Source of the DNA: Synechococcus sp. WH 7805
GTDB lineage: Bacteria; Cyanobacteriota; Cyanobacteriia; PCC-6307; Cyanobiaceae
NCBI RefSeq assembly: GCF_000153285.1
Contig: NZ_CH724168.1
Span: 1,553,848-1,608,212 of the forward strand
Direction of reading: 5' to 3'
DNA length: 54,365 nt
This document shows, piece after piece, positions 15,823 through 33,667 of this stretch. The notes beneath the pieces are model-generated. The model did not search any database, was not told the origin of the DNA, and was given only the letters and a program-made list of their open reading frames with translations. The translations under genes were made by a program, and so were the position numbers. Numbering within the stretch: the first letter of the stretch is position 1; every line of letters begins with the position of its first letter.

Positions 15823-16830
15823 ATGTTTATTTTAGGCTGCCATCGATCGGGCACTTCTCTGCTCACAAACATACTCAAATCAGCACTTGAGCGTCATAAC
15901 ACTGAAGAAACTGGAACCGCACAACAAACCATTGAATCAAATATCGACAATCCAGAAGGCCACCATGAAAGCGTTGCCATCGTTGACCTCAACGAACGAT
16001 TACTGACCATCACGAATGCAAGCTGGAATCACCCATTCCTACTCACTCCTGACTGGACCGATCTCGAACACTATCTATCACTGAACGAAACGCGACAAAC
16101 GCTGAGGCCATGGGCACTCAAAAGCAATTGGATTGACAAAGATCCGCGCTTATGTCTAACAAGAGAAGCCTATTTCCATCTCCTGCTCAAGGAAGTTCCG
16201 TCGATAGCCATTATCAGACATCCCTTCGCAGTGGCCAACTCACTCCTGGCCAGAGACGGGATGCATTCCGACCGCGCTTTAGCACTCTGGATGTGCTACA
16301 ACCATCATCTATTCAATAGCTGCAGAAGCCTGCCAAACGAGGTTCTCAGCTTCGCATTTTTAAGGCATTATCCAAAAGAAAGCTCTCAGAGATTGAGCAA
16401 TGCCGTGGCCAGCACGGCCACAATTCCAGACTGGGCGATCGAACAAGAGCTCGAGCAAAAGTTCGTCGGAGACCTCATCCGATCCAGACCGGACCAGCTT
16501 CTGTCAGATCGTGCTTCGAATTCACTACGCGAAAGCTGCATAACTCTTTACGATTTTTGCCAGGATGCATCGAAATCCAAACAAGAAATCCAAGTCATTG
16601 CCAATGAATTCAAAACGCATTTTGCGGCAAACCTAGATGAATTAAATATGATTTTTCCTGCTAATAAGATTTCAGAGATAAAAACTATTCATTTAGAACA
16701 CTTAAACCTCGAAAACCAAAGATTGCACCAGGAGTTGCAACATTCCAGAACGAGGTACAGGCGAAAAGCCGTTGAGCTCATACGCTCAGCATCACATTGG
16801 CTGAACAGACCTCACAAGCAATCGCACTAA
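15823..16830 (+). CDS. Sulfotransferase family protein
   Basis: This 335-residue protein opens with a PAPS-binding loop, [15 protein letters not shown] (residues 4-18), and later has the 3'-phosphate-binding segment [17 protein letters not shown] (near residue 130), so it probably moves sulfuryl groups from PAPS to an acceptor such as a glycan. Its C-terminus becomes helical and basic ([18 protein letters not shown]). Base composition is clearly more AT-rich than cysE before it and secA after it, suggesting it was acquired. It begins six bases after cysE, so linkage to sulfur metabolism is possible but could also be chance. Its stop overlaps that of secA by four bases. Confidence 0.85.
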
Positions 16831-16840
16831 GCGATTGCTT
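16816..16840. terminator. Likely bidirectional terminator between the sulfotransferase gene and secA
   Basis: A perfect 10-base inverted repeat, AAGCAATCGC and GCGATTGCTT, flanks the five-base loop ACTAA that contains both overlapping stop codons. The symmetrical stem could end transcription from either side. There is no U-tract on either strand, so it may only protect transcript ends. Confidence 0.55.
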
Positions 16841-19685
16841 CGGACACTGACTGTGGCTTCGCAGGCTGGAACATGAACATCGAATAGATCACGTTGCGGC
16901 GCATGTTGGTCATCATGTCGAGGAACATGTCATAGCCCTCGTTCTTGTATTCGATCAGGGGGTCTTTCTGGCCATAACCACGCAGGCCCACTGACTCGCG
17001 CAGGGCATCCATCGATTGGAGATGCTCGCGCCAGAGGGTATCAATCTGCTGAAGGATGAAGAAGCGCTCCGCTTCACGCATCAGGCCCGGACGCTGCTGT
17101 TCAATCTGGCCTTCCTTGAGGTCATAAGCATTACGCAATTGCTCCTGCAGAAAAGCTTTGAGCTCCTCCATCGACAATCCCTGGAGCTGATCAGGCTGGA
17201 GGTCGTCGAGCAGATACACGAACTCCTGCACCTTGCTCACCAGCTGGGTCACATCCCATTCCTCTGGAGGCAGGTCCGGATTCACATAGGCCTCAACGAT
17301 CTCGTTCATGGTGCGCTCGCCGTAGCCAATCACCTGCTTCTTCAGTTCGCGACCCTCCAGCACCCGGCGCCGTTCGGTGTAAACAGCCTTTCGCTGATTG
17401 TTCATCACCTCGTCGTACTCGAACACCTGTTTACGAATGTCGTAGTAATACGTCTCGACCTTCTTCTGAGCCCCCTCCAGGGAGCGGGTGAGCATGCCCG
17501 ATTCGATTGGCATGTCTTCCTCCACCCGGAAGGCATTCATCAGTCCGGCCACCCGGTCCCCACCAAAAATGCGCAGGAGGTTGTCGCCCAGGGAGAGGAA
17601 GAAGCGGGTGGAGCCGGGGTCTCCCTGACGCCCGGCCCGACCACGCAATTGGTTATCCACCCGACGGGATTCATGGCGCTCGGTGCCGATCACGTGCAGA
17701 CCACCGGCCTCCCGCACCCGTTGTTCTTCCTGCTTCACCACCTCGTCGTATTCCCCCTTCACCCGGGCGATGGCCGCGCGCAGAGCCGCAATCGCAGGAT
17801 CGTCGGTGGGGGCCTTCTCCGCCGCCGTAGCGATGTGATCTTCCAGTTCAATCACCGTGAGTGCCCGGTCACCCCAGGCCTTCACCAGATCCCTGGCCAA
17901 ATCGGCCAGAGCCTGATCAGTGCCCTCAGTGAGCTGGCAGGGATAGAGGCTGCCGATGGCACGGGCTTCGCTGGGGGCATGGCCATGGGGGCCACTGGCG
18001 GGGGCTGCCTTGGCAGCAAAACCTCCACCACCCTCAGCGCCGCTGCGTTGCAGAGGCACGGGCGGACGATGGCCCTCCTCCGGACGCACCAACCGAGACA
18101 GCAACACCTCGCGCAGTTTCAAGCGAGCCATGTAATCGCTGTTGCCACCAAGGATGATGTCGGTGCCACGACCCGCCATGTTGGTGGCGATGGTCACCGC
18201 CCCGGAGCGTCCGGCCTGAGCCACGATTTCGGCTTCCCGCTCCACATTCTCGGGTTTGGCATTAAGAAGGTTGTGAGGAATGTTCTCTTCTGCCAGAAGC
18301 GCACTGAGAAGCTCACTCTTCTCCACACTGGTGGTACCCACCAGCACTGGCCGGCCCTGCTGGTGCACCTCGGCGGTTTCCTTGGCCACGGCCCGCCACT
18401 TGGCCTCTTCCGTTTTGTACACCTGGTCCACCCAGTCCTGCCGGGCCCGGACCCGGTTGGTGGGCACGATGGTTGTTTCGAGTTTGTACGTCTTCTCAAA
18501 CTCGGTTTCCTCTGTTTTGGCCGTGCCGGTCATCCCGGCAAGGCGGGGGTAGAGCAGGAAGAAGTTCTGGTAGGTGATGGACGCCAGGGTCTGGGTTTCG
18601 GGCTGAATCGGCAGGGCCTCCTTGGCCTCGATCGCCTGGTGCTGGCCATCGCTCCAGCGACGTCCTGGCATGACGCGGCCGGTGAACTCATCGACGATGA
18701 CCGCTTCGCCGTCGCGCACGATGTAGTTCACATCGCGGGTGAACAGATCCTTGGCCTTGAGGGCGTTGGTGATGTAGTGGGCCCAGGGATCCTGAGGGTC
18801 ATAAAGATCGGCCACACCGATCATCTGCTCAGCCTTGGCAAAGCCCTCATCGGTAAGGGTGCAGCTGCGCTGCTTTTCATCCACTTCGTAATCACCCTCG
18901 GGATCGATCCCGTCCTTGCCCATCTCGGCCGCCCGGGTGAGGGCTGCAGCCACTTCCGCCGCCTTCTGATACTTCTCTTGAGGCCGCTCCACCTGGCCAG
19001 AAATAATCAGTGGCGTTCGGGCTTCATCAATCAGGATCGAATCGACTTCATCGATCACGCAGTACTGGAACTGCCGCTGCACCACCTCATTGATGTCAGC
19101 AGCCATGTTGTCGCGCAGGTAGTCGAACCCGAGCTCTGAGTTGGTGGCATAGGTGATGTCGCATCCGTAATTACGGCGACGTTCGGCGGGGGTCATGTCC
19201 TGCTGGATCAGACCCACGGAGAGGCCGAGGAAACGATGCACCTGCCCCATCCACTCCGCATCACGGCGTGCCAAGTAATCGTTCACGGTCACCACGTGGA
19301 CTCCGCGACCGGTCAGGGCATTGAGGAAGCTGGGCAGCGTGGCAACCAGCGTCTTGCCTTCGCCGGTTTTCATCTCAGCGATTTGCCCCTCATGCAGCAC
19401 CATGCCGCCGATCAACTGCACATCAAAGTGGCGCATGCCCAGCACTCGCTTGCCAGCTTCTCGCACCACAGCGAAGGCCTCCGGCAGCAACTCATCAAGC
19501 ACGGGTCGCTGATTTTCGAGGCTTCCGGCGTTATCAAGGCGCTGACGGAACTCGGCGGTACGCCGGCGCAGGTCCTCGTCGCTTAGAGGAGCCACCTCCT
19601 CTTCGAGGAGGTTGATATCGGACACGATCGGCTGATAGCGCTTCAGCTTGCGGGCATTGGGGTCACCCAGCAGCAGCTTGAGCAT
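16827..19685 (-). CDS. secA: Preprotein translocase ATPase SecA
   Basis: SecA drives unfolded precursor proteins through the SecYEG channel at the plasma and thylakoid membranes. Motifs: Walker A in [20 protein letters not shown], the DEAD-type box in [18 protein letters not shown], motif VI region GTDIILGGN, and the helical wing and scaffold domains. The ATG at 19685 ([19 protein letters not shown]) is the standard cyanobacterial start; a longer start at 19730 adds 15 residues without homology. The full protein is 952 residues and includes a Pro/Gly/Ala-rich insert near 18000-18090 (DNA positions) seen in cyanobacterial versions. The C-terminus ends [15 protein letters not shown], so there is no zinc-binding SecB tail, as expected in cyanobacteria. 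Confidence 0.98.
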
Positions 19686-19882
19686 GGAAAGCGCTAAATC
19701 AACTGGGGGACAGCCTACTGAGGCCGCCAAGGGGCGATGCGCCGGCGATCCGTACCACTGGCTGCATCCCTACAAAGACAAGTGCCCGAACCTCTGCAGA
19801 GGCTTCAGGCAAGCGCTGCACCGGCACTCATGACAGCCAGAAGCTGCATCGATCGAGGCGACGGATCAATCGGACCTCTTAA

Positions 19883-19902
19883 CGAAGGGTGAGCACCCTT
19901 CG
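19883..19902. repeat. Perfect inverted repeat in the secA upstream region
   Basis: CGAAGGGTG and CACCCTTCG form a 9-base inverted repeat with a 2-base spacer (or an 8-base stem with a 4-base loop). No U-tract follows in either direction. It lies about 200 bases upstream of secA and 320 upstream of the nucleotidase gene; it could be an operator or the end of an unannotated transcript. Confidence 0.45.
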
Positions 19903-20149
19903 GGATCGCAGGCAAATGATCAATCAGACATTCCTCACAGCTCTGCCAAAAAGCTCCTCGGAATTAAAACGTTGTCTTCAGCACGAGCCAAGCAAAATAC
20001 GCACTTGAACTTGAAAACTAAATCTGCATTAATTCGATCACTTTTGAAAAAAATAAAAGGAGAGAATCAAGACAAAAGAAAAGTGATGATGCAGCGCGCA
20101 ACACACGTTAGCAATTGATTATTTCAATGATAAAAAAGGACAAAAAAAC

Positions 20150-20168
20150 TTTAAACCAGCCTTAGCCG
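20150..20168 (+). promoter_or_regulatory. Possible degenerate Pho box upstream of the nucleotidase gene
   Basis: TTTAAACC and CTTAGCCG are 8-base near-repeats separated by three bases (11-base period), 51 bases before the ATG. The cyanobacterial Pho box is two or more 8-base repeats like CTTAACCT with 3-base spacing. Both units deviate at two positions, so the match is weak. An A/T-rich -10-like segment (TAAATAT) follows at about 20192-20198. Confidence 0.3.
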
Positions 20169-20219
20169 CAAATCAGACTCTCAATTTTAGGTTAAATATG
20201 TTATCGAATTAATTCTTTC

Positions 20220-21941
20220 ATGGCTTCCGAGAAAGGATCCCACGCCGTTGAAGAAAATTTCACCTTTGAGTTGTTTCACCTGGGCGATCAAGAGCCTCTC
20301 AATGTTGGAGGCCTGACTGATATCACAGGTGCTTCGGCGGTCCTGAATGCCTTGAGAAATCAAGATCTCGGCAATGACGGCATTGAAGACAACACTCTGG
20401 TTCTTTCCTCTGGAGATATCTTCATCCCCAGGAACTTCTACAGCGCCTCGGAAGCCGCTTTCGGTTCCAGTGGCATCGCCAGCATCACCATTCAAAATCT
20501 GCTCGGCATTCAAGCCAGTGCACTCGGCAATCACGAATTTAATGATGGCACGGCCAATCTGGCAGGCCTGATCGATGGTTCAGCACCCGGAGAGATTCTG
20601 GGTGCTGATTACGCCGGAGCAGACTTCACATACCTGGCCACCAATCTGGACTTCAGCACCGATATCAATCTGGCACCCCTTGAAGTCGCCGCTGGACAGG
20701 CACCAATCCCACGCACCGTCACATCCTCGGTGGTGTTTGATGTCAACGGTGAGCAAGTCGGTGTCATTGGCGCCATCACACCCACCCTTGCATCTATTTC
20801 GAGCCCAGGAGATCTAGCCATCAGCCCTGGTGGTTTTGACACCAATCCAACGCCCGAACAGTTGGATGCTCTGGCCCCTGTAATTCAAGCCGGCGTTGAT
20901 GATTTGCTGGAAGCCAATCCCGGCTTGAACAAGGTTGTGCTGCTGTCACACTTCCAGCAAATCAGCATCGAACAGGCCATTGCAGAACGGCTGACAGATG
21001 TTGACATCATTGTTGCCGGTGGATCCAATACTCGCCTCTTTGATAACAACGATCGCATTCGCGACGGTTACACCAGCCAAGGCGAGTACCCCACCTTCAT
21101 CACCAATGCTGGTGGAACGCAAACCGCATTAGTCAATACTGACGGCAGTTACAAGTACCTCGGACGTTTAGTTCTTGAATTCGATGCCGATGGCAACATC
21201 ATTCCTGAGAGCTACAACCCCGAGGTGTCCGGTGCCTATGCCACTGATGCACAAGGCGTTGCCGATTTGGGCGCCGAAGATCTGGTCGATCCTGGCATTC
21301 AGGAGATTGTCGATACCATCGAAGAACAGATCATTCTTTCAGAATCCAATGTTCTCGGCAATGCTGATGTTTTCCTAAACGGCAACCGCTCTGGTGATTT
21401 CACCGCCGACAACACCGACGGAGTCCGCACCCAGGAAACCAACCTCGGCAATCTCACCGCCGATGCCAATCTGGCCGCTGCACAAGAGTTGGATGAAACC
21501 GTTGTTGTCTCCCTCAAAAATGGCGGCGGCATTCGCGCCTCCATCGGCGAATCAGTTGTGCCAGCAGGTGGGGGCGCTTTCGTACGAACTCCCAATCCGG
21601 AAATCGTCGATAGCAATGGAAACGTAGTGAAGCCTGAGGGTGGTATCAGCGAAAACGACATTGCTGCAACCCTCGCCTTCAATAACGGGCTCACCCTCCT
21701 GACACTGACGAAGCAGGAACTGGTGGATCTTCTCGATTACGGCGTTTCCATCCTTCCTGAGATTGGTGGACAGTTCCCACAGATTTCAGGTGTCAAGTTC
21801 TCCTTTGATCAAGACGATCCAGCAGGAAGAAAATTCAGAGCGCCGCAATTGTTGACAGCGACAACAATCTCATTGCTGAACTCGTACGCGATGGTGCACT
21901 TGTCGGTGATCCCAACCAGGAATTCCGGACCGTCACTCTGA
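20220..21941 (+). CDS. Nucleotidase, N-terminal open frame (573 residues)
   Basis: This is the part that would actually be translated from the ATG at 20220 if the shift near 21830 is real. It contains the whole metallophosphoesterase domain and most of the 5'-nucleotidase C-terminal domain, so it might keep activity. The final 37 or so residues (after DQDDPAG) are out of frame and without homology. The DUF4114 domain would be lost. Confidence 0.7.
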   Translation: MASEKGSHAVEENFTFELFHLGDQEPLNVGGLTDITGASAVLNALRNQDLGNDGIEDNTLVLSSGDIFIPRNFYSASEAAFGSSGIASITIQNLLGIQASALGNHEFNDGTANLAGLIDGSAPGEILGADYAGADFTYLATNLDFSTDINLAPLEVAAGQAPIPRTVTSSVVFDVNGEQVGVIGAITPTLASISSPGDLAISPGGFDTNPTPEQLDALAPVIQAGVDDLLEANPGLNKVVLLSHFQQISIEQAIAERLTDVDIIVAGGSNTRLFDNNDRIRDGYTSQGEYPTFITNAGGTQTALVNTDGSYKYLGRLVLEFDADGNIIPESYNPEVSGAYATDAQGVADLGAEDLVDPGIQEIVDTIEEQIILSESNVLGNADVFLNGNRSGDFTADNTDGVRTQETNLGNLTADANLAAAQELDETVVVSLKNGGGIRASIGESVVPAGGGAFVRTPNPEIVDSNGNVVKPEGGISENDIAATLAFNNGLTLLTLTKQELVDLLDYGVSILPEIGGQFPQISGVKFSFDQDDPAGRKFRAPQLLTATTISLLNSYAMVHLSVIPTRNSGPSL

Positions 21942-22373
21942 ACTTCCTGGCCGAACCACGATTCGATGAAGAAACCGGTGCATTCATCGGTGGTGATGAT
22001 GGCTATCCATTCCCCAACATTGACGATCCTGCCATTGCAGCACGGGTGAATCCTGTCTTCCTGGAGCAAGAGGGAGTTCGCACCGGTGATGCCACCTTTG
22101 CCGATGACGGCACTGAGCAGGATGCTCTGGCCGAGTTTCTTCTCGATAACTTCGCCACAGCAGAAACCGCTTTCAACCAGGAAGACGTTGGTCCAGCCTT
22201 CGATGAGCGCATTCAAAACCTGGCATTCCGGGACGACACCGTTCTGGATAATGCCGAACCAGTCGTGGGTGAGATTTCAAGCAACGACAATGGAAGTGTT
22301 GTGGCAGTGACCCGGGGGGGGTGACTTCAATTTCACAATTCGTGCCAATGCCAATGCCGCGGCAACGCAAGAT

Positions 22374-23192
22374 TTGGTCGCAGTCTCCACCACTGAGGGA
22401 GAAAGCCGATCAATCATCCTCTCGACATTGGGAACAGCCTCAGGCACACCGGCTGGCTTCGACTTTGACTACTCATCAACAGAAAATCTGGAGGCAGACA
22501 GCTACAACTTTGCCCTACGCGATAGCATCACAGGGGATCTGAACTTCCTCACAGCAACAGCAGTAGATGATGGAGAATTTGAATTAAATGGCGATGGTAT
22601 TGCGGTTACCACAACAACCGATCTTCTTTCCAGCACGACCGAAGAGTTGACGCTCTTGGGTGAAACCGCTGAAGCCATCGACTTGTTTGACTTGGCTAAT
22701 CCCAGTGGAGACTTCACACTGCAGCTGGATGCGACCCTATTCCGTGAAGCAGCCTTCGACAATCAAGTGGGCTTCTATCTCGCCAATCGCGCTGGGAGCG
22801 TTCTTGATCCCTTGACTGGAGAAGAAGTGGCAACACTCGAGGGCGATCGTTCCACGTATCTCGATGCAGTTGTCAACAACAACTTGTTCTCCGGGCAAAT
22901 TGCCAACAACAACAGTGGCGGCCTCGATACTTCTGAAGCGACGATCAGTGGCAACATCGATTTCAACGATGCAGTTCTCCTGCCCTTCCTGGTCAGAAAC
23001 GGCACTTTGAGCGATGTCGCTTCGAACTTCAACAACCTCTACGTTGCACCAGCCAGCCTCAACGCTGACAACGGAACAGACCATATCCGCCTGCTGGGTG
23101 GCAACACCTTCGGGTTTGAAGATCAACGCAATGCTGGCGACTCTGACTTTGATGATGTGGTGGTAGTGATCAACAACCTCAACATCGTCTAA
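22374..23192 (+). CDS. DUF4114 domain fragment (C-terminal open frame of the nucleotidase)
   Basis: This open frame continues back without a stop to about 22315, just at the G8 run. It encodes acidic, Asn/Asp/Thr-rich beta structure ending in the DUF4114 signature FGFEDQRNAGDSDFDDVV. No ribosome-binding site or natural start codon is apparent, so independent expression is unlikely; it belongs to the gene starting at 20220. A strong terminator follows 33 bases after its stop. Confidence 0.65.
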   Translation: MVAVSTTEGESRSIILSTLGTASGTPAGFDFDYSSTENLEADSYNFALRDSITGDLNFLTATAVDDGEFELNGDGIAVTTTTDLLSSTTEELTLLGETAEAIDLFDLANPSGDFTLQLDATLFREAAFDNQVGFYLANRAGSVLDPLTGEEVATLEGDRSTYLDAVVNNNLFSGQIANNNSGGLDTSEATISGNIDFNDAVLLPFLVRNGTLSDVASNFNNLYVAPASLNADNGTDHIRLLGGNTFGFEDQRNAGDSDFDDVVVVINNLNIV

Positions 23193-23225
23193 GCCGGTTC
23201 GTCGACAACAAAATCTGGGAAACCC

Positions 23226-23263
23226 ACTGCCTGTGATGTCGATGTCCATCGCAGGCAGTTTTT
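23226..23263 (+). terminator. Rho-independent terminator after the nucleotidase gene
   Basis: ACTGCCTG at 23226-23233 pairs with CAGGCAGT at 23252-23259, extended by TGATG with CATCG (one G-T wobble) to a 13-base stem with an 8-base loop, followed directly by TTTTT. This is the clearest terminator in the window and shows that the nucleotidase unit ends here. Confidence 0.9.
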
Positions 23264-23400
23264 GTGTCTTCAAGTCACCCCATGGCACAACGCATTGATT
23301 GAACAATGTCACCATCTCAACCGCTGCACACACTCTGCGGCGATTGTTGAGCATCAATGTGCGCGATCTGAGCCTCAACGTTCAACGACCGTGCCACAGC

Positions 23401-23589
23401 AAGGCCCATCAAGGCATTGTGAAAACTGGGAACCGTAGCCACCAGGGTCTTGCCCTCGTTCGGCACCATGCCGCCGCTTAGCTTCACGTCAAAGTGGCGC
23501 ATACCGAGCACCCATTTGCCCGCTTCGCGCACCACCGCAAACGCTTCCGCCAGTCGCTCATCCAGCCAGGGACGTTGATTGTCGCCCGT
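23401..23589 (-). pseudogene. Remnant of a secA gene (codes about residues 48-118 of SecA)
   Basis: On the minus strand, 23589 down to 23401 reads [17 protein letters not shown], then [38 protein letters not shown] and HNALMGL. Each block matches the intact SecA in this window ([56 protein letters not shown]). About ten residues around IAEMKTGEG are deleted between two EG repeats, removing half of the Walker A loop. The nucleotide sequence differs clearly from the intact copy, so it is an old duplicate or came from another strain. No flanking remainder of the gene is recognised, and it cannot make a functional protein. Confidence 0.85.
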
Positions 23590-23883
23590 TCCCGCTGATC
23601 AGAAAAAAAGTGATGTTAAATCCGCCCTCACTCGATGGCTTAAACACCAACCCACTGACCGAACGCGAAGAGCACCTCACCACAGCAGAGCCAGACCTGC
23701 TCTACAACGTTGAAGAGCTGCCGCGATCGAAACTCATGAGTACTTGATATCGTCAGCAATCCTCCGTTCAGGTGCGTGCAGCTCTCGATTCTGGCGTTAT
23801 CACTCACGACCGACCTGGGGAACAGGCTTTGTTGAGGGCTAAATCAAGCGTCAAACTTTACGCCTGCCCATGAGGCTGAAATC
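23590..23883. other. Gene-poor stretch between the secA remnant and the broken glycosyltransferase
   Basis: A small open frame at 23613-23747 (plus strand, 44 residues, ending LLYNVEELPRSKLMST) has no recognised homology and may be the tail of a lost gene. The rest (23748-23883) shows no gene, repeat or RNA that I can support. An AAAAGTGATG match to 20079-20088 lies at 23606-23615, but ten bases is too short to call an insertion boundary. Confidence 0.4.
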
Positions 23884-24772
23884 CTATGCTTCTGGAATGG
23901 GTCCAAGGACAATGAGCAGCGTCTTAATCACACCAACCGCTACGACTGCCACGTTGCCCAACATAGAGCAAGTCATTTCATTTCTCCGGCAACATGAATG
24001 GATTGGCCAACAAAGCGACAGGAGATGTGTTAGAGCTTGCGAATGACGACCTATTCCTATACCCAGGCTGCGTCGATGGGACCATCGCCGTGCTTGCAAA
24101 CCAACCAAATGTGGCTTTGGTCGGTGCAAGGCTGCGCGATAAAAACGGACTACTCACCCAGGCAGAGATTCAGTTCGACAGCCAAGATTCCAGTTATCAC
24201 CCTCTCGATCGACTGGTCGAATCATCTAAACCCAGGTCGAGCCCGAGGAGCCCGCTGGCAGCTGTCACAGGAGCCTTGCAGTGGATCCGGCGCGGAGCAT
24301 TCTGAAACAGCCCCTCCACACTCGCCACCACATCTGCGATGAAGATGTCAAGCTCTGCCTTGATATTCAGCAGCTCCTAAACCAAGTGGTGTTGAAGTGC
24401 AATCAGGCAACAGCAATCCATGAGTGGGGTACAACCCGCAGTCAACAACCTGACCAAGAACAAAACAGCGAAGACTTGCTCAGGCTTAGAGCATGGACAG
24501 AAAAACTTCTCAATCAGGCGTGCGCCGATCAATTGAGAGTGCTTCTAGAACAGCAACAACGAGAATTACAAACCCTCAGAGACACGGTTCGCAATGAGCT
24601 CCCGAGACTTAAAGCCCAGAAGGCCGAGTTTTTTAAGCAACGCCAGTTCTATGACAACATGGTGAACACCCGAGACCTTGAGCAAGAAGGGAAACAAGTA
24701 TTGTTTGATTTACCCGAAAAGCGATTGCGACTGAAGCAAGACCTGGAACTCCTACCTGGAGATCATCAATGA
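23884..24772 (+). pseudogene. Family 2 glycosyltransferase, decayed by truncation and frameshifts
   Basis: Pieces of one GT2 (O-antigen/rhamnosyltransferase-like) protein appear in order in three frames. Near 23890-23975 the text FWNGSKDNEQ matches the VDNGS motif region. From 23973 the frame changes and reads FHFSGNMNGLANKATGDVL and ELANDDLFLYPGCVDG, the equivalent of the FNFSxxNN and LNDD (DXD-type) motifs, then VALVGARLRDKNGLLTQAEI and ALQWIRRGAF before a stop at 24303. From about 24290 a third frame reads HICDEDVKLCLDIQQ and ATAIHEWGTTRS, matching the GEDxxLC and HxxSxS motifs, followed by a coiled-coil tail. The N-terminal nucleotide-binding strand is missing. The last frame overlaps the next glycosyltransferase by ATGA, so it was once the first gene of that unit. 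Confidence 0.75.
24281..24772 (+). CDS. C-terminal fragment of the family 2 glycosyltransferase, coiled coil
   Basis: This 163-residue open frame contains the last GT2 motifs (DEDVKLCLDIQ) and then a long Gln/Glu/Arg/Leu-rich helix (about residues 75-130: LRVLLEQQQRELQTLRDTVR) predicted to form a coiled coil. The nominal ATG at 24281 is inside the previous frame, so it is probably not a true start. The stop overlaps the start of the next gene (ATGA), which may be its remaining role: delivering ribosomes to that gene. Confidence 0.5.
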   Translation: MDPARSILKQPLHTRHHICDEDVKLCLDIQQLLNQVVLKCNQATAIHEWGTTRSQQPDQEQNSEDLLRLRAWTEKLLNQACADQLRVLLEQQQRELQTLRDTVRNELPRLKAQKAEFFKQRQFYDNMVNTRDLEQEGKQVLFDLPEKRLRLKQDLELLPGDHQ

Positions 24773-26289
24773 CACGCCCTCTGAAAGGGCTTCGCCTGGT
24801 CGTCAGTGGATATGAATTTGAGCAGCAAGAGCATCGCGGCATTGCTGTTTTTAGCAAAGGACTGCTGCGAGCCCTGAAAGAATCCGGAGCCGAAATATGG
24901 CTACTGACGGGATTCCAGGCTCCCATGCAAGATATTGCGAAAGCACAGCTTCCAAAAAACGTTCAAAAACGCATCAGAGCCGCACGAATCCTGGACACTC
25001 TGAACAGTGCAGAATCAATGGATGATGAATCAGGCCTCCTGATTAAGCTGCTTCAACTGCTCCCATTGACCAAGCAAATCCTTAATATACTCAAACAGAT
25101 CCACCGCCTAAAGCAAAAACTCTTTCCAAAACGATGGATCACACGTCAAGAATTGCAATTGTTACCACGCTCTGAACTAATCAACAGTCCCTACCAGCGT
25201 TGTGAACGACTGTCCTATCTGAGTGAAATCGACGGCTTGATCTGTGCCAACAACTGCTTTCTAAATTCGATCGAATTAGCCAAACGAAAGCACCCCCACA
25301 GCTTACACATCGATCTGCGGGGATTCGATGGGCTCATCACCACAAGTCCGTTGAACATCAAGCCTGTGAACACCCGTCTGTTTGTTCAAACAGTTCACGA
25401 CCTGATCCCCCTTGATTATCAGCGTACCCGCGATCACCTGCCCTGCTTCACACGCAGGCTGCAGGCGGCAGGGCCAGCTAGGCGATTCTTCGTGTCTGAG
25501 GACGCAAGGCAACACTATGAACTAAGCATCCTTGGGACGCTGTCGAATCCGAATCGGTTGCAACGCGTCGTGACACAGTCTCCCTCGCTGCAGTTCCCGG
25601 GAGATTGCCTTGACTGGGAAGCCCGCACCCGACAGGTGCGCGTGCTGTCGAGCAATCAAAGCCAATTGCATGCTCTCAAACCATGCAGCTACTTCTTGTT
25701 CAACTCGTCGGTTGTACCGCACAAGAATCTCTTGTTCGCACTCAAAGCATTCATGGAGTCGGACCTTGAGCAAAAAAATATTCGGTTCTGCATCACCGGC
25801 AAACCTCAGAATGATGAATACAGCGAAGCGGTTCGAAGTGTGGCTGCAAAACACAAGAGTGTGATTTTTACGGGATATGTGGACGAAGCCACGAAACGAC
25901 AGCTCTATCTGAATGCTCTTGCTCTTCTCAGCCCGTCCCTGATCGAAGGATTCGGAATCCCAGTGCTGGATGCTGCTTGCCTTGGACTTAGCGCCATCGC
26001 CAGTCCACTCGGCTCACACCGGGAGATTCAGGCCATGCATGACTTCAAAGACCATGTGATGCTGTGCTCAACACTGGTCACCAGCGACTGGGCCAGTGCC
26101 ATGCGTCTGATCGCTCTCAAAAACGAACTCTCGTTATCTGAATTGTCGCCAAAGCGTCAACGCAAGAGGCTGAATCAAATGCGTGCCGAACGCATTCAGC
26201 GCTACCGCCACTACCAGACGCTGATCGACGAAGCTTTTCAATCAACAATCTGCGATCTACTCACTTCAGAAGAAATAACGGTCGCGTAG
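24769..26289 (+). CDS. Family 4 glycosyltransferase
   Basis: This 506-residue GT-B enzyme would transfer a sugar from an activated nucleotide sugar during surface glycan assembly. The C-terminal half has the GT4 features: FNSSVVPHKNLLFALKAF (start of the donor domain, near residue 310), FCITGKPQNDEYSE, VIFTGYVDEATKRQLYLNA and ALLSPSLIEGFGIPVLDAA with the E-G-F-G-x-P motif. The N-terminal acceptor half contains a long insertion (residues 60-150) rich in Leu and Lys. The sequence is less GC-rich than housekeeping genes. It starts in an ATGA overlap with the decayed GT2 gene. It is convergent with the next gene, 14 bases apart. Confidence 0.9.
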   Translation: MTRPLKGLRLVVSGYEFEQQEHRGIAVFSKGLLRALKESGAEIWLLTGFQAPMQDIAKAQLPKNVQKRIRAARILDTLNSAESMDDESGLLIKLLQLLPLTKQILNILKQIHRLKQKLFPKRWITRQELQLLPRSELINSPYQRCERLSYLSEIDGLICANNCFLNSIELAKRKHPHSLHIDLRGFDGLITTSPLNIKPVNTRLFVQTVHDLIPLDYQRTRDHLPCFTRRLQAAGPARRFFVSEDARQHYELSILGTLSNPNRLQRVVTQSPSLQFPGDCLDWEARTRQVRVLSSNQSQLHALKPCSYFLFNSSVVPHKNLLFALKAFMESDLEQKNIRFCITGKPQNDEYSEAVRSVAAKHKSVIFTGYVDEATKRQLYLNALALLSPSLIEGFGIPVLDAACLGLSAIASPLGSHREIQAMHDFKDHVMLCSTLVTSDWASAMRLIALKNELSLSELSPKRQRKRLNQMRAERIQRYRHYQTLIDEAFQSTICDLLTSEEITVA

Positions 26290-26303
26290 AGCAATCCTCC
26301 ACT

Positions 26304-27401
26304 TCATCTCACCAAACTGGCGAGCTGACTAACAATGGCCGACTGCTGAGCATCCACAGACAATCGCTCCGCCAAAGTCCATCCATCGCGCGACAACTGG
26401 CTCCAAAGACTGGAGTCAACCAACAGGGTGCGCACTTGCTCAGCGAAACCAACTCCATCATCAACACCGGAAAACAAGAGGGATGAGGTCTCGTGAAACT
26501 CTCGATGAACAGGGATGTCGCTGACGATGGTGGGAATGCCCTCAGCCTTCGCCTCAAGAACGGGATAATCGAATCCTTCCTCACTGCTGGCAGAAATCAG
26601 GGCCAAAGACGACCGCATGCAGGCCATGAGCTCTTGCAGGGGCATTGCATCGATCAACTTCACTTGCGCTGGAGCAGGCAACTGCCTATGCAGACGCTGT
26701 ATGAGTGATGACTGCCGACCGCTCCTACCAACAATCCGCAGTACGCCTTTCCACTGGGGGCACAACGTCTGCAACTGCCCCACACCTCGCAACAGCGCCG
26801 GGACATTCTTGTTCACATCGTGGCGAGCCAGCGCTAGAAGATCCTCACTTCCTGGCGAAAGCACACGAGGGCGTTCAATGGTGATGCCGTTTGGAATCAC
26901 CTCAATACGCTCCGCCTCCACACCGAACTGCACCAGCTGATCGGCCACATAGCGACTGATCGCGATCAGCCGGGTGGCGACCCTGCAATGGCGCGGCTGC
27001 CAGAGGCGGTAGCGCAACCAAGCCTTGCGGCTGTTGGAAGCCACCAGTGGTGTGAGGTCGTGGCAAGTAATCAGTTGCGGCACTTGAGGCCAGCAGAGCA
27101 GGGCATCAAAGAAGGGGGAATAGATCGCCTCCAGCTGATCCAGCTTGATCCCATTTCTTTGGAGCAGAGCCGGCAAGTCGAGCCCATGCTGCACCAGGCT
27201 GTACCTCTGCAAAAAACGCATGCGCCGTCCTGGCGCCCAAGCCGGAGGATCGGCCAACCACTGCTCAGGCCTCAGCAAGGCGCCTTGGCCATCCGCTCCA
27301 AGCTGCAGGCGCATTCCGTCCAGACCAGGCACCACCCGCTGCACATAGCTGCCGAAACCTGAATGCCCGGGCAGCCAGGAGAGCAGGTTGATCAGATGCA
27401 T
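26304..27401 (-). CDS. Family 4 glycosyltransferase, last gene of the ABC-exporter unit
   Basis: This 365-residue GT-B enzyme begins NLLSWLPGHSGFGSYVQRVV, a GT4 glycine-rich start. The middle shows CHDLTPLV and RLIAISRYVADQLVQFGV with IEVIPNGI, and the donor domain has SSLALISASSEEGFDYPVLEAKAEG, matching the EGF-x-x-P-x-LEA motif. It starts in a TGATG overlap with the ABC permease gene, so it is translated together with the exporter and probably builds the same glycan. Sugar and linkage cannot be predicted. Confidence 0.9.
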   Translation of the reverse strand: MHLINLLSWLPGHSGFGSYVQRVVPGLDGMRLQLGADGQGALLRPEQWLADPPAWAPGRRMRFLQRYSLVQHGLDLPALLQRNGIKLDQLEAIYSPFFDALLCWPQVPQLITCHDLTPLVASNSRKAWLRYRLWQPRHCRVATRLIAISRYVADQLVQFGVEAERIEVIPNGITIERPRVLSPGSEDLLALARHDVNKNVPALLRGVGQLQTLCPQWKGVLRIVGRSGRQSSLIQRLHRQLPAPAQVKLIDAMPLQELMACMRSSLALISASSEEGFDYPVLEAKAEGIPTIVSDIPVHREFHETSSLLFSGVDDGVGFAEQVRTLLVDSSLWSQLSRDGWTLAERLSVDAQQSAIVSQLASLVR

Positions 27402-28225
27402 CAGATCAGGAAGGGAAGAGTGCGGCGTTCACTGCTGAGCAGCCGGATCGCGATCCAGATGCCCAGTGCATTCGCAGCCAAAAGCACAAAACCAACACCC
27501 CACTGCACCTCTCCAACCATCAAGCTATGGCGAATTGGAGACAGAACCCGGTAAAGGGGATTGATGTTGGCCGTCCAGGCCATCGCCCCAAGATTCTTTT
27601 TCTCATAGAGAATCGGGGAGAGCAGAAACACCAACTGCAGCACAATCGGCACCAGCTGATAGAGATCCCGAAAACGAGCCCCCAGAAGACAGGTAAGCAT
27701 CGGAAACCAATAGAGAAATAAAAACAAATTCAGCAAAGGCAACCAACCACAAAGAATCAGATTGAAAAGCAGGTTGTGTTGAAAGAAACTCAGCGCCAAC
27801 AACACCATCAAGAACGATTGAAGAAACGTTTGCAACTGAAAAGCCCATTCCTCCAAGGTGTAAAAGATCGGATGCAGGTTAATGTTGTGCAGGTGATCAC
27901 GATTATGCTCAAACAGATTAGGAGCACCACTCACCGCCCCACTGATGGTGTTCCACACCACTAATCCCAAGCCGAGATAAACCACATAAACAGTGAAGTT
28001 CTGCACTTTGAACACCGTGCCATACACAGCAGCCAGAACTGCGATTGAAAACAAATTGGACAGTCCAAGCCAGAAGCTCCCCAAGGTGGTTCGTGCGAAA
28101 CGGGCTCGGGTCCGTGCCGTTGCAGTGAACCACCACACCCTGCGGCTCTCCCAGGCATGACGCAGGATGCGGCGCACCGACTCACGCCGGGGACGAATAG
28201 AGGCAGACATGTCGGACACGCTCAT
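27401..28225 (-). CDS. ABC-2 type polysaccharide export permease (Wzm/KpsM-like)
   Basis: This 274-residue membrane protein has about six hydrophobic helices after a basic N-terminal segment (RESVRRILRHAWESRRVWW). The ABC-2 membrane signature is recognisable in ARFARTTLGSFWLGLSNLFS and VYGTVFKVQNFTVYVVYLGLG, and the last helices include LVFLLSPILYEKKNLG and NPLYRVLSPIRHSLM, typical of Wzm. It would pass a lipid-linked glycan across the plasma membrane with the upstream ATPase. ATG at 28225 overlaps the ATPase stop (TGATG); a TTG three bases earlier is unlikely to be used. Confidence 0.92.
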   Translation of the reverse strand: MSVSDMSASIRPRRESVRRILRHAWESRRVWWFTATARTRARFARTTLGSFWLGLSNLFSIAVLAAVYGTVFKVQNFTVYVVYLGLGLVVWNTISGAVSGAPNLFEHNRDHLHNINLHPIFYTLEEWAFQLQTFLQSFLMVLLALSFFQHNLLFNLILCGWLPLLNLFLFLYWFPMLTCLLGARFRDLYQLVPIVLQLVFLLSPILYEKKNLGAMAWTANINPLYRVLSPIRHSLMVGEVQWGVGFVLLAANALGIWIAIRLLSSERRTLPFLI

Positions 28226-29022
28226 CAACGACGGGTCGCGTGATAGTGATTGAGAGCCTGGTCGAGGGGCCCGTCAAAGACGATGCTGCCCTCACTGAAC
28301 ACCAGCCCACGTCGGCAAAACCGCTTCAGCAGTGCGTCTGAATGAGATGCCAATAACAACGTGCCAGCGGAGGCCAGGAATGACTCCAAACGAACTTTGG
28401 CCTTCTCGTAGAAGCTGCTGTCTCCAGCACCAAAGCCCTCATCCATGGCCAGACAGTCGTGGCGGGATCCTGTGAGCACCGCAAACATCAATCGTGCCGC
28501 CATCCCTTGGCTGTAGGTCTTCACAGGGAGATGCACGAAATCACCGAGGCCGGAGAAGGTCACCACGTCATTGCAGAAGGCCTCAAAGCCACGAAGATTG
28601 CCGTGGGTGAGCAGGTAGTGGGCTTTGATCGCTTGCTGACCACTGAGTTCAGGACTGGTGATGAAGCTTTTATGGATCATCGGATGCACAGTCACATGGG
28701 CCTGAAAGACCCCCGCTGAATGCTGATAGATCCCGGAAACGAGGCGAAGAAACGTTGATTTGCCGGCGCCGTTGTGACCGATCAAGGCCACGCGCTCACC
28801 TTCCCGCACGGTGCAGCTCACATTTGCAAGGGCCGTAATCACCGCGCCACCACGCCTGCGATTCAAGCGCCCACCTGTCACCGAACGAATCAGAGAAGCC
28901 TTCAAACTACGGGTTTCCGTGGTGGCCACAGGGATATCAAGACGCACATTCTCCAAGCGCAAAACCAGATTAGAGTTCTCACCGGTGTCGCAAGCCTGAG
29001 TGGTGTGGACTGTGTCAATCAT
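28225..29022 (-). CDS. ABC transporter ATP-binding protein for polysaccharide export (Wzt/KpsT-like)
   Basis: This 265-residue ATPase powers glycan export with the downstream permease. It has the long N-terminal lead of Wzt proteins (TRSLKASLIRSVTGGRLNRR), Walker A in ALIGHNGAGKSTFLRLVSG, the shortened signature YSQGMAARL, Walker B with the catalytic Glu in CLAMDEGFGAGD, and the H-loop LLLASHS. There is no C-terminal carbohydrate-binding domain, so it is the short KpsT-like form. Divergent from the glycosyltransferase at 29230; the 207-base gap between them is AT-rich, presumably carries both promoters, and shows no other feature I can support. Confidence 0.94.
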   Translation of the reverse strand: MIDTVHTTQACDTGENSNLVLRLENVRLDIPVATTETRSLKASLIRSVTGGRLNRRRGGAVITALANVSCTVREGERVALIGHNGAGKSTFLRLVSGIYQHSAGVFQAHVTVHPMIHKSFITSPELSGQQAIKAHYLLTHGNLRGFEAFCNDVVTFSGLGDFVHLPVKTYSQGMAARLMFAVLTGSRHDCLAMDEGFGAGDSSFYEKAKVRLESFLASAGTLLLASHSDALLKRFCRRGLVFSEGSIVFDGPLDQALNHYHATRR

Positions 29023-29229
29023 AGAGTGATACTACCGTTGACTCCAAACAAAGAGATTCTTTGGCCAGTGCCAGCAAGACGCAAACGGCAAAACGTTCAT
29101 CAGAAATTAGGGTCAACACATCACAGGCATCAGCGAAGCTGTCCTTCCTCGAGCGAACATCCCCTTCTAAAGCCCTCCAAACAGGGATACTAATAAGACC
29201 CTGTCATTTCATCCCAAAACAAGAAGGCG

Positions 29230-30480
29230 ATGAACGTACTCTTCATTCACCAGAATTTCCCAGCACAATACCGACACATTTGCCAACAACTGCTTCGACA
29301 GGAATGTCATACGATAGTTTCAATTGGGATGGGGAAAAGCCCCTTCAAAAATAGCCAAAACTACGCGCACATACAATACTCGGCTGAACGTTCAAGCACC
29401 AGGGGGATTCATCCTTGGGTCACTGACATCGAAACGAAAAGCATCCGCGCTGAAGCCTGCGGAAAAGTATGCCAAAAATTGAAGTCACAGGGCTTTGTTC
29501 CTGACATTATCTGCGGCCATCCTGGCTGGGGAGAGCTCCTTGGCATCCCCTACGTTTGGCCCCAATCACCAATCCTGATGTATCAAGAATTTTATTACAA
29601 TGAACACGGATTCGATAGTGATTTCGACCCAGAATTTGCAAAGCAGCAAAGCGATTGGTCAAAAAAAACGGAAACGTATCTGAAAAATGCCAATTCACTA
29701 CTTAACCTTCAACACGCAACTTGGAATGTCACACCAACAAACTTCCAACGGAGTTCTTTCCCAATCCAGTTTCACCAACGATTCTCCACCATTCATGATG
29801 GAATTTCAAACCATGCACAACCCGCACCGGACAAAAGTAACATCAAAGTCCAGGTAGGCAAGCAGACCATTCTCAGTGATCAGGATCAACTCATCACGTT
29901 TGTGAACCGCCGCGTCGAGCCTTACCGCGGCTGTCACTCCTTCATCCGTTCTATTCCTCTCATTCAGGAAAGAAACCCCAACGCCATCATCGTGATTGTT
30001 GGCATTGCCAAGGGCGTGAGCTACGGGAGCCCCTGCCCCCAGGGCGAGTGGAAAGACGTTTTCCTCAAGGAAATCGAAGGTCATTACGATCCTGAAAAGG
30101 TTCTTTTTGTGGGTCAGCTTCCCTACCAAGACTTTTTAAATCTGCTGAAGCTGAGTCGCGTTCATGTATATCTCACCTATCCATTTGTGCTCAGCTGGAG
30201 CCTGCTCGAAGCCATGAGCACAGGATGCGCGATTGTCGGATCCTCCACTGCTCCGGTAACAGAAGTGATTGAGGACAACGTGCACGGTCTTCTCGTCAAC
30301 TTCTTTGACCCCAAGGCCATCGCTGCAGGCATCACTGATCTTCTTCACGATGGCGACCGCGCAGCCAGACTGGGAAAAAACGCCCATCAGCGTGCTGTTG
30401 AGCAGTACAGCCTTGAGCGATGCCTACCGCGCCAGCTTGAGCTGATCAATCTGGTGGCCAGAAAGGTAATCGGAGCCTGA
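29230..30480 (+). CDS. Family 4 glycosyltransferase with Glyco_trans_4_3 N-terminal domain
   Basis: This 416-residue enzyme opens with MNVLFIHQNFPAQYRHICQQ, the hallmark of a distinct GT4 N-terminal domain, followed by PDIICGHPGWGELLG and PILMYQEFYYNEHGFDSDFD. The donor half has FVNRRVEPYRGCHSFIRSI, VLFVGQLPYQDFLNLLKLS and a truncated EAMSTGCAIVGSSTAPVTEV motif where the usual E-x-F/Y-G-x-x segment is replaced by FVLSWSLLEAMSTG. The first half is more AT-rich than the second, so it may be a mosaic. It ends two bases from the convergent sugar-transferase stop. Confidence 0.9.
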   Translation: MNVLFIHQNFPAQYRHICQQLLRQECHTIVSIGMGKSPFKNSQNYAHIQYSAERSSTRGIHPWVTDIETKSIRAEACGKVCQKLKSQGFVPDIICGHPGWGELLGIPYVWPQSPILMYQEFYYNEHGFDSDFDPEFAKQQSDWSKKTETYLKNANSLLNLQHATWNVTPTNFQRSSFPIQFHQRFSTIHDGISNHAQPAPDKSNIKVQVGKQTILSDQDQLITFVNRRVEPYRGCHSFIRSIPLIQERNPNAIIVIVGIAKGVSYGSPCPQGEWKDVFLKEIEGHYDPEKVLFVGQLPYQDFLNLLKLSRVHVYLTYPFVLSWSLLEAMSTGCAIVGSSTAPVTEVIEDNVHGLLVNFFDPKAIAAGITDLLHDGDRAARLGKNAHQRAVEQYSLERCLPRQLELINLVARKVIGA

Positions 30481-30482
30481 AT

Positions 30483-31841
30483 TCAGCGGCCACCAGCTTT
30501 GAGAACAGTTTTAATTGTGCGGAAAAGGATCACCAGATCCAACCATGTGCTGAAGTGCCTTAAGTAGTAAAGGTCGTACGACAATTTCAGATCGGAGTCT
30601 TCGATGCTGCTGGCATAGGGTGCACAAACCTGAGCCCAACCACTCAATCCCGGTCGCATCCAATGGCGTTTGCGATAATGGGGGATGTGCCGCTCCAGCT
30701 CGTGCTCCAGCTCCGGACGCTCCGGACGCGGACCGATCAGGCTCATCTCACCGTTCAGCACATTCAGCAGCTGTGGTAACTCATCGAAGCGCAAACGGCG
30801 CAACCACAGCCCCACCCGGGTGATGCGCTGATCACCGGGCTGAGTCCAGAGCGCTGGTGCATGAGCCGGTTGGACAGACATGGTGCGCAACTTGAACACG
30901 CGGAAGGGTCGACCCAGCCAACCACTGCGCCACTGCACATACAGCACGGGCCCGCGATCTTCCAGCCAGATCAGCAAGGCAGCCAAGCCCACAAAGGGAA
31001 TGCTCAGCAACAGCAGACCACCAGCCACCACCAAATCGGCCATCCGCTTGAGCTGGGCCTGCACGCTGAAGGCTGCAGCCCAGGGAAGATCGTCGTAGCT
31101 AAGGCCGCCCTCGGGCAGAAAGGCCGGTGGCAACCGTTCCTGCTGCTGTTCAAACAGACTCAGAGGTGAAACCACCCTGACCTGGCGCGGGTCGAGGGTC
31201 TCCAGTGTTTCCTGAAGGGAAACCCAGCGGGGATCGCCCTCCAACCCGGGCGCCAGGGCCAGCAGGAAGGGACGATCCACGTCAGTCAACACCAACTGCA
31301 AGTGCTCGACACTGACCAGCTCCAGGCGCTCTCGCTGCGGCACCCGTCGCCAGCTCACCAACATCGCTTCTTGATCGTCCGGGCCAGCCAGCAACAACAC
31401 ACGAGGCCGGTCAGGCATCAGCACACCACGTCGCAGGCCCACGCGCACCAGGAGCGACCAAACGAACAGCAGACCCATCCAAAGGAACTGCACCCGCCGC
31501 TCCACTAGCCACACCTCCTCTCCAGGGTTGATCAGCCAGCGAGCGATCGCCACCACCATCAGGGTCACCACGCTGGTCAGCAGCAGCCGCTGCAGCAACA
31601 CTGGCAACGCCAGCTGTCGCCAGCGCAGCACGGTGTACCCACCAAATAACCAACCCAGGAGGGGATAGAGCAAAAAACTAAACACCAGCCAGGCCCTCTG
31701 ACCCTCCAGATCCGAGCTGCCCGTGGGGACCGCCGACAGTGCATCAGGGGCTACCACGATCACCAGCAGAATCAGCAGCTGTCCAAGCCAATCGAGCAGA
31801 ACTGCCCGCAGCAGCAACGAGCGAGGATCACATCCCCACAT
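30483..31841 (-). CDS. Polyprenyl-phosphate sugar-1-phosphate transferase (exopolysaccharide initiating enzyme)
   Basis: This 452-residue inner-membrane enzyme starts glycan assembly by moving a sugar-1-phosphate from a nucleotide sugar to undecaprenyl phosphate. The N-terminal part has about four hydrophobic helices (residues 12-150), then a CoA-binding-like linker, a fifth helix near 270 (ADLVVAGGLLLLSIPFVG) and the bacterial sugar transferase domain: VQWRSGWLGRPFRVFKLRTM, RLRFDELPQLLNVLNGEMSL, IGPRPERPELEHEL and RPGLSGWAQV. The Asp-Glu pair of RFDELPQ is the catalytic acid pair known for the family. Its start overlaps the stop of a small upstream frame (TGATG). Confidence 0.94.
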   Translation of the reverse strand: MWGCDPRSLLLRAVLLDWLGQLLILLVIVVAPDALSAVPTGSSDLEGQRAWLVFSFLLYPLLGWLFGGYTVLRWRQLALPVLLQRLLLTSVVTLMVVAIARWLINPGEEVWLVERRVQFLWMGLLFVWSLLVRVGLRRGVLMPDRPRVLLLAGPDDQEAMLVSWRRVPQRERLELVSVEHLQLVLTDVDRPFLLALAPGLEGDPRWVSLQETLETLDPRQVRVVSPLSLFEQQQERLPPAFLPEGGLSYDDLPWAAAFSVQAQLKRMADLVVAGGLLLLSIPFVGLAALLIWLEDRGPVLYVQWRSGWLGRPFRVFKLRTMSVQPAHAPALWTQPGDQRITRVGLWLRRLRFDELPQLLNVLNGEMSLIGPRPERPELEHELERHIPHYRKRHWMRPGLSGWAQVCAPYASSIEDSDLKLSYDLYYLRHFSTWLDLVILFRTIKTVLKAGGR

Positions 31842-32017: not shown

Positions 32018-32136
32018 TGTCTCAGTGTGAACGTTCAGATCGACTTTCTCATCAGATCCCACACGGCAACGCTTGAGGCAAGCGTTTGAAGTTGTTGTTA
32101 AGAGTGCGTTGAACGCCAAGACCTTTGCCCAGGCCC

Positions 32137-33039
32137 ATGGCCGCCACGATTTACCTGCACTGGACTGCCACCGGCTACGACTGGATCCGCCCTGGTCACT
32201 ATCACGCGATCATCAGCGGTGATGGGCGGGTGCACAGGCTGCATGCCACCAGCGTGGATCTTCCGGCCCACACCTGGGCGCGCAACAGCAATGCCGTGGC
32301 CCTTTCTTGCGCCTGCATGGGCGGCCAGCCCGACCCCTGGACTCTGCCGCCCACGCCTGCGCAGCTCATGAGCCTCTGCGCTGAAACCGCCTCGATCGCG
32401 GCCAGCTGGGGCTGGACAGCAGCGGACATCACGGTCCAGCGGGTCATGACCCACGCCGAGGCGGCCTCCAACAAAGACGGACGCATGATGCACGACAACT
32501 ACGGGCCGGTGGTCTGGGGCGGCACGGGCGAGCGCTGGGATCTGCTGCAGTTAGCCAAAAACGGCCCCATTGATGGCGGTGAACAGCTTCGAGCCCGGAT
32601 CCGGGCACTCATGGATGGACATTCAGTGAGCGACGCCGTCAGCGATCGTTTGGGTTTCAAAGGGGAAACCACGATCCAGGCCCGGAGCGAAGCGCTAACC
32701 GTGACGATTGACGGCGAAGGCCGATCCTGGGCCCCGGCAACCGATCTCCTGGAACGCTATGGCATCCCCTATGCCTGGAACGCCAGTGAGCGACAGATCA
32801 TGATCGGCGCCTTGGATGTTGCGCCCACCTACCGGGACGACAGCGTGCAAGCCTCGGTGGGCTGGCCCCTATTCACCATGACCCTGCAATCGGGCAATGC
32901 ACCGGTGATCCTCACAGGCATCGTGCGGCCATCGGAATCAGGGGATCGGGCCTGGTGCCGGGTGCTGGAGTTCGCCGAAGAGTTCGGCATCTCCATTCAC
33001 TACAACCCGTTCACGCTGCTGGAGCGGCGGGGCGGCTGA
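32137..33039 (+). CDS. N-acetylmuramoyl-L-alanine amidase-like protein
   Basis: This 300-residue protein starts MAATIYLHWTATGYDW, with the zinc-ligand histidine in the LHWTAT position of the type 2 amidase/PGRP fold. HYHAIISGDGRVHRL and the later VMTHAEAASNKD (second His) continue the fold, and the domain ends near residue 165. The remaining 130 residues contain two or more beta repeats (LTVTIDGEGRSWAPATDLLE and an IMIGALDVAP segment) resembling copper-amine-oxidase-like or stalk domains. No signal peptide is seen. It would cleave the amide between the glycan and peptide of peptidoglycan, but the active form cannot be confirmed by eye. The ATG at 32137 is preferred over TTG at 32125. Confidence 0.85.
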   Translation: MAATIYLHWTATGYDWIRPGHYHAIISGDGRVHRLHATSVDLPAHTWARNSNAVALSCACMGGQPDPWTLPPTPAQLMSLCAETASIAASWGWTAADITVQRVMTHAEAASNKDGRMMHDNYGPVVWGGTGERWDLLQLAKNGPIDGGEQLRARIRALMDGHSVSDAVSDRLGFKGETTIQARSEALTVTIDGEGRSWAPATDLLERYGIPYAWNASERQIMIGALDVAPTYRDDSVQASVGWPLFTMTLQSGNAPVILTGIVRPSESGDRAWCRVLEFAEEFGISIHYNPFTLLERRGG

Positions 33040-33523: not shown

Positions 33524-33531
33524 TCAAGGCA

Positions 33532-33603: not shown

Positions 33604-33667
33604 ATGTCAGTCGCGTGGGATGTGTCCCTTGCGACCTGGCAAGCATGCACTACAAGGGGGCCCTGGG

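Follow-up and report, generated by a model that had tools for sequence, protein, structure and literature searches.

Synechococcus sp. WH 7805 carries, 3.7 kb from its intact secA and likewise on the minus strand, a short second piece of secA (hereafter the relic) that looks dead and is fused to remnants of polysaccharide genes in the order in which relatives keep these genes beside secA. The window analysed, that is, the whole stretch of DNA under study, is 54,365 nucleotides long, and its genome is G000 in our numbering. On balance, we believe that the relic is the dead remnant of a second, diverged secA that flanked the secA-rgpF-glycosyltransferase edge of a polysaccharide island, and that it is the scar of an island exchange between lineages in which one end was joined illegitimately. 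The remnant itself, its decay, its fusion to rgpF and glycosyltransferase remnants in the relatives' order and its divergence at silent sites beyond that of a recent copy of the resident gene are directly supported.

Results

The features around secA are given in Table 1.

Table 1. Features on the secA side of the polysaccharide island and beyond (positions in the window)
Feature	Position	Strand	Remarks
Intact (resident) secA	16827-19684	minus	From the ATG of MLKLLLGD; called ORF to 19730; NCBIfam TIGR00963 secA, 1222.8 bits
Stretch common to the secA upstream regions of G002, G022 and G012	19685-19757		81-84% identity over ~19650-19757, secA 5' end included
5'-nucleotidase-like gene with DUF4114 end	20220-23192	plus	PF02872, PF13448; two frame changes
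Terminator-like hairpin after the nucleotidase gene	23226-23259	plus	13 pairs, 7 GC, T tail
secA relic	23404-23598	minus	65 codons; internally lacks 30 nt in frame, including part of the MKTGEGKT loop
C-terminal relic of RgpF-like gene	23592-23747	plus	Stop included; fused to the secA relic; tblastn with G005 homolog
Glycosyltransferase pseudogene	23776-24772	plus	Internal stop codon and frame break; homolog next to rgpF or secA in G022, G019, G002 and G012
Remaining polysaccharide island genes	24769-31841		Glycosyltransferases, ABC transporter pair, bacterial sugar transferase (Pfam)
Conserved far flank	33068-34162		GNAT gene, tRNA-Gly (33532-33603), ribH

The intact SecA protein matched the relic in a search of positions 20001-24800 at E 7e-23 (tblastn), and the DNA comparison with intact secA gave two blocks with 103/132 and 37/46 identical bases (blastn, E 1e-26 and 4e-7). 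Over the whole alignment, the relic shares 145 of 195 bases with the resident secA, with a longest exact stretch of 14 bases. The translation of the relic matched the Pfam family SecA_DEAD (PF07517) with E 3.2e-11 and 43.5 bits (cut-off 24.6). An earlier note, made from the letters alone, had reported a same-strand secA fragment at 23401-23589 corresponding to SecA residues 48-118. That fragment is real and its limits were close to ours: the part that matches firmly runs from residue 66 to about residue 133 of the called ORF, or about 50-117 when numbered from MLKLLLGD. A weak extension of the alignment reached ORF residue 159-160 (tblastn, genome search). The DNA of 23263-23412, compared with secA of 29 genomes, had a best score of 29, and 200 shuffles against one genome reached 30; because this stretch scored no better than shuffles, the end of the relic was set near codon 117. 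The in-frame loss that the same note had seen between two EG repeats was also confirmed, since 30 nt are missing between two EG-coding near-repeats, which read GAGGGGC and GAAGGC in the resident secA. The loss removed part of MKTGEGKT, which we take to be the ATP-binding loop of SecA. With only 65 codons and without this part, the relic has neither the full length nor the complete loop of a functional SecA translocase.

Whole-genome searches with the fragment and with SecA found only two secA places in the own genome, namely the intact gene and the relic. Among the 31 genomes of the genus, secA was matched in 27, and the 26 others had one place each (in one of them, G027, secA is seen only as a piece at a contig end); a second secA conserved across the clade, as expected of an accessory SecA2, was therefore not found among them. 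The resident secA was nearest to its own clade (G002, G022 and G010) in 14 of 14 sliding windows. No sign of a mosaic resident secA was thus seen, and because the resident gene tracks its own clade throughout, the relic is the odd copy. No clear gradient of silent substitutions was seen along the resident secA at between-species distance.

Upstream of secA, the match to G002, G022 and G012 stops near 19757. No DNA match to 19757-20258, 23193-23403 or 23599-23780 was found among 152 comparison loci, own-genome loci being left out. Within 19680-24000 there was no repeat longer than 33 nt and none that frames the stretch, so a mobile element reading was unsupported. At its 3' end, secA shares 4 bases with a sulfotransferase-like gene of low GC content (0.46; 15823-16830; PF13469, just below cut-off). 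G022, G002 and G010 have cysE within about 60 bases of secA and no sulfotransferase-like gene between, suggesting a second small insertion on that side.

Of the two frame changes of the nucleotidase gene, one lies between 21809 and 21830 and the other at or near a run of eight G (22314-22321). Sequencing error, a mutation that disables the gene and a phase-variable tract are all possible explanations of this run. As for the hairpin that follows the gene, the window has 7 terminator-like sites against 6.0 expected by shuffling, and a single site is weak evidence.

At its right end (about 23592-23598), the relic passes directly into the last ~52 codons of an RgpF-like gene. The G005 homolog matched this rgpF remnant over 51 residues (tblastn, E 2e-7; E 1.5e-6 with a shorter peptide); the G022 and G019 homologs gave no match to it at E 1 or better and were aligned with MAFFT. 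PF05045 (RgpF) was matched by the G005 and G022 homologs and not by the G019 homolog. From the stop codon of the remnant to the next gene there are 28 bases, compared with 28 in G022 and 29 in G019. The next gene is the glycosyltransferase pseudogene, whose amino acid identity over 109 residues was 60-61% to G022, G019 and G002 and 46% to G012 (tblastn with the intact homologs); the intact homologs of the first three match PF00535. At about 60%, the pseudogene is far from these three glycosyltransferases, which are themselves 87-94% identical to each other.

Reading outward from the 5' end of secA in G022 and G019, we found secA, the RgpF-like gene (about 420 codons), a family-2 glycosyltransferase (MRLSIL...), more glycosyltransferases and an ABC transporter pair. 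The RgpF-like gene also adjoins secA in G005, and in G002 and G012 a glycosyltransferase gene does so directly. Because the relic is fused to rgpF and glycosyltransferase remnants in the G022/G019 order, we assigned it to the island edge and not to the nucleotidase. Judging from this collinearity, the relic is one piece of a deletion-ridden secA-rgpF-glycosyltransferase edge of the polysaccharide island. About 1.3 kb is missing at the secA-rgpF fusion (secA codons 1-49, the spacer and most of rgpF), as estimated from the layout of G022. At the left edge, no DNA homology to secA was seen beyond codon 117; later deletion or decay could make the same edge. The idea that the relic simply lies at the native secA-glycosyltransferase distance of G002 was dropped once the rgpF remnant was recognised.

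Compared with all 26 sampled alleles, the substitutions found in the relic only were distributed 7/7/3 over codon positions 1, 2 and 3, whereas the functional alleles, each compared with the other 25, had at most 2, 1 and 7 private states at these positions. Against the nine near alleles, the resident's included, the relic-only substitutions were 9/8/8. Loss of codon-position bias marks a pseudogene remnant; the relic has lost it and, by this pattern of substitutions, looks dead. The differences between the relic and the resident secA were 11/9/30, that is, 30 of 50 lie at third positions (p = 1e-4 against a recent neutral copy). The relic is therefore no recent local copy, and the statement of the earlier note that it is not a recent tandem copy stands. 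At third positions, the resident secA differed from nine relatives at 19-27 sites; the relic differed from it at 30/65, and three clade members at 22-23. Since the relic-only changes are 7/7/3 and 9/8/8 but the differences from the resident are 11/9/30, we infer that the copy apparently first diverged under constraint as a working gene, about as far as the alleles of other species, and decayed later. A second secA-like gene had been proposed for this place; the part of that proposal that holds is the remnant of a diverged secA, and a separate paralog is unnecessary.

By identity, the alleles nearest to the relic were those of G023 (153/195), G019 and G003 (149), G018 (148), G012 (147), G010 (146) and the own genome (145). 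Equal distance from every secA had been named beforehand as evidence against a foreign allele. The ten nearest of the 26 alleles are indeed nearly equidistant (142-153/195), a result that decay and shortness give as well. Likelihood placement in the secA tree of 26 genomes gave the own secA as the best branch, with G019 and G023 no more than 0.6 log units behind; the AU test at 0.05 did not reject 45 of 49 branches. Of the 19 sites that set the resident apart from its three clade-mates, the relic agrees with the resident at 8, with the clade at 7 and with neither at 4, and counting clade-private sites was uninformative for assigning its allele. As sequence evidence, 195 decayed bases cannot place the donor lineage.

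No donor allele was found in the searches of the genus, the family, phages, plasmids, GTDB and viral contigs. The relic DNA matched 21 of the 31 genus genomes, and the 20 matches outside the own genome all lie inside the listed secA gene; it also matched 185/400 family genomes, which were not checked one by one. One record of the phage collection and seven of the plasmid collection matched at 74-79%, four annotated as secA and four without annotation. The scans with exact relic peptides, which find close relatives only, gave one locus at 43% in a Proteobacteria MAG among GTDB species genomes and two loci at 33% among viral contigs.

The 5' flank of secA was compared in 25 genus genomes. GNAT or ribH lies within 1.35 kb of secA in 19 of them, at 27 kb in G021 and not within 32 kb in G022, G002, G012 and G019; in G005 the contig, which stops at 11 kb, shows neither. 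The GNAT gene of the window is 13.4 kb from secA. Across the genus genomes the secA-GNAT interval spans 0.05 to >32 kb and is a variable polysaccharide-island site. The earlier description of secA as an integration hot spot is accurate for the flanking interval, but our data do not show it for secA itself as the target of recombination. No second secA piece was present in the 25 flanks, the lone blastn match (G005) being the start of the intact gene. Homologs of the window genes in 24769-29022 lie in the same order beside secA in G022, G002, G019 and G012, and the genes in 26304-29022 are closest to the own clade (76-93% amino acid identity to G022/G002). An amidase-like gene at 32125-33039 (PF01510, below cut-off) has homologs directly beside secA in G004, G009 and G029 (65-66%) and none in the examined flanks of G022, G002 and G010.

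Extra secA pieces were sought in 271 family genomes that are at least 90% complete, of which 266 matched secA. More than one match was found in 11 of the 266: the matches in G285, G205, G405, G203 and G216 read as a single secA gene split by contig ends or frame breaks, the extra secA of G224 and G260 is on second contigs and may be contamination or strain mixture, and partial extra pieces are present in four (the window genome, G100, G108 and G150). The pseudogene of G100 (L178 9249-9783) consists of pieces 14-73, 81-163 and 935-961 with several stops; it lies about 35 kb from the intact secA. On one side it is flanked by a methyltransferase gene near an ABC-transporter pair, on the other by a nucleotidyl transferase gene. 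It was also observed to be within a stretch of polysaccharide genes between secA and cysE. The pieces of G108 (L179 6086-7318) are on the opposite strand about 1.1 kb from the intact secA; with no stops and an assembly of 310 contigs, they are possibly an assembly artefact. A C-terminal piece of cysE accompanies them, between homologs of the window's ABC transporter pair and a GNAT gene. G150 has a C-terminal secA piece with a stop, beside a glycosyltransferase.

As a control, gyrB had more than one match in 8 of 267 genomes, comprising seven split genes and one real extra (G290). That extra (G290:C1:154384-154530) is a 49-residue N-terminal piece about 190 bp upstream of the intact gyrB. The difference between 4/266 and 1/267 was not significant (Fisher p 0.22), and secA is the longer query; at most three (secA) or four (gyrB) candidates were scored per genome, and both counts are lower bounds. 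The recurrence of secA pieces is a lead, not a result.

Discussion

The relic is real and ordinary in kind, and it is better explained by island turnover than by insertion of a nucleotidase gene. On the reading that we favour, island DNA from another lineage would have been taken up together with part of its own secA, carried as flank. The end on the island/GNAT side would have been joined by homology. At the incoming secA end, there would have been no crossover within the resident secA and instead an illegitimate join beyond the nucleotidase, with the outcome that a second secA 5' piece, kept intact by nothing, would have been left. Later deletions would then have taken the 1.3 kb at the rgpF fusion and the 30 nt between the near-repeats. 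The collinearity with G022 and G019, the RgpF-like gene beside secA in G005, the sharp left edge, the decay after constrained divergence, the clade affinity of the whole resident secA and the variable secA-GNAT interval all fit such an exchange, and G100, G108 and G150 also have partial secA pieces next to polysaccharide genes. Several results speak against it. The genes in 26304-29022 follow the own clade, which fits a resident island and leaves the side that was the newcomer unproven; the best branch for the relic is the own secA; the surplus of extra secA pieces over the gyrB control is not significant; and of the homologs searched with, only that of G005 picked up the rgpF remnant.

The reverse arrangement, which we consider rather unlikely, would make the island the native side. 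The resident edge would have been secA-rgpF-glycosyltransferase, and a piece of DNA from a close relative, carrying secA and the nucleotidase, would have come in through a crossover within secA at one end and, at the other, been joined illegitimately to codon 117 of the older copy, displacing the old secA 5' end and the island. The same anatomy would be expected, and the clade affinity of the island genes agrees with it. The nucleotidase is also patchy: it was matched in 3/31 genus genomes and 48/300 family genomes (own genome counted in both), and the nearest homolog among the 47 other genomes is 70% identical and belongs to another genus (G083). On the other hand, the only other matches in the genus, in G002 and G022, are 43 kb or more from secA, and it speaks mildly against this order of events that the resident secA has no foreign 5' part and that the relic differs from it at more third positions than clade members do.

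Still less probable is that lineages exchanged nothing and that part of secA was duplicated long ago within the own lineage and decayed where it stood. Maximum likelihood put the relic on the branch of the own secA, as such a duplication predicts, but the excess at third positions excludes a recent copy, the 8/7/4 split of the 19 sites fits no simple date of duplication, and the rgpF and glycosyltransferase remnants on the relic side would still need an explanation.

According to the earlier note, the nucleotidase may have arrived together with the fragment, which would make the two a single insertion next to secA. The two are neighbours, and beyond position nothing ties them. The relic runs on into the rgpF and glycosyltransferase remnants, and in the 44 of the 47 other nucleotidase genomes with a listed secA place (all but G153, G154 and G179), the two genes lie on different contigs in 35, which does not strictly exclude nearness, and share a contig at a distance of 43 kb or more in 9. 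A joint arrival is thus highly improbable. A present function of the fragment, as a small protein or a regulatory RNA for secA, is scarcely credible: the 65 codons are still open, but relic-only changes are no rarer at codon positions 1 and 2 than at position 3, the ATP-binding loop has lost a part, and no exact run with secA exceeds 14 bases.

Surface islands determine the cell surface and hence the recognition of cells by phages and grazers, and they are believed to be exchanged by way of core DNA at their flanks. To our knowledge, physical traces of this swapping at island edges are rarely described. A dead piece of a flanking housekeeping gene, fused to remnants of an old island edge, would be a physical trace of this kind.

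Some surface islands, called replacement flexible genomic islands, are exchanged by homologous recombination in their flanking regions, with a peak of silent SNPs at the boundary as the telltale (PMC4033161). As in those islands, surface polysaccharide genes here occupy the same locus beside core genes and their content is very variable between relatives; unlike there, a dead fragment of the adjoining core gene has remained at one edge here. The island is also not present in all strains, and because the interval is at most 1.35 kb in 19/25 genus genomes, "variable island site" is the safer name. One-sided joins have been described as homology-facilitated illegitimate recombination (PMC3240628, PMC5361080). 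In the T6SS immunity arrays of Vibrio cholerae, for example, displaced remnants are ascribed to it (PMC5361080), and there as here an anchored end and an illegitimate join would leave orphan gene pieces; those arrays keep immunity genes, whereas here a dead piece of a housekeeping gene was kept, and the mechanism is inferred in both. Similarly, genomic islands of marine Synechococcus hold laterally transferred genes (PMC2441476, PMC7522525), and richness in glycosyltransferases is shared with those of PMC2441476. The word "secA" does not occur in the main text of either paper. In titles and the beginnings of abstracts, no prior report of an island scar made of a secA piece was found, an absence that is weak evidence, since most subscription papers lay outside the search.

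It is possible, and we propose it tentatively, that secA is a recurrent crossover anchor for swaps of surface-polysaccharide islands in picocyanobacteria, that dead scraps of secA within islands record failed or one-sided swaps and can be counted as their fossils, and that G000, G100, G108 and G150 are independent cases. A search across genomes could find and count scraps of this type. In annotation, 23404-23598 should neither be called a second secA nor be linked to the nucleotidase. The secA relic is not a new kind of system; it is a modestly useful fossil of genome history.
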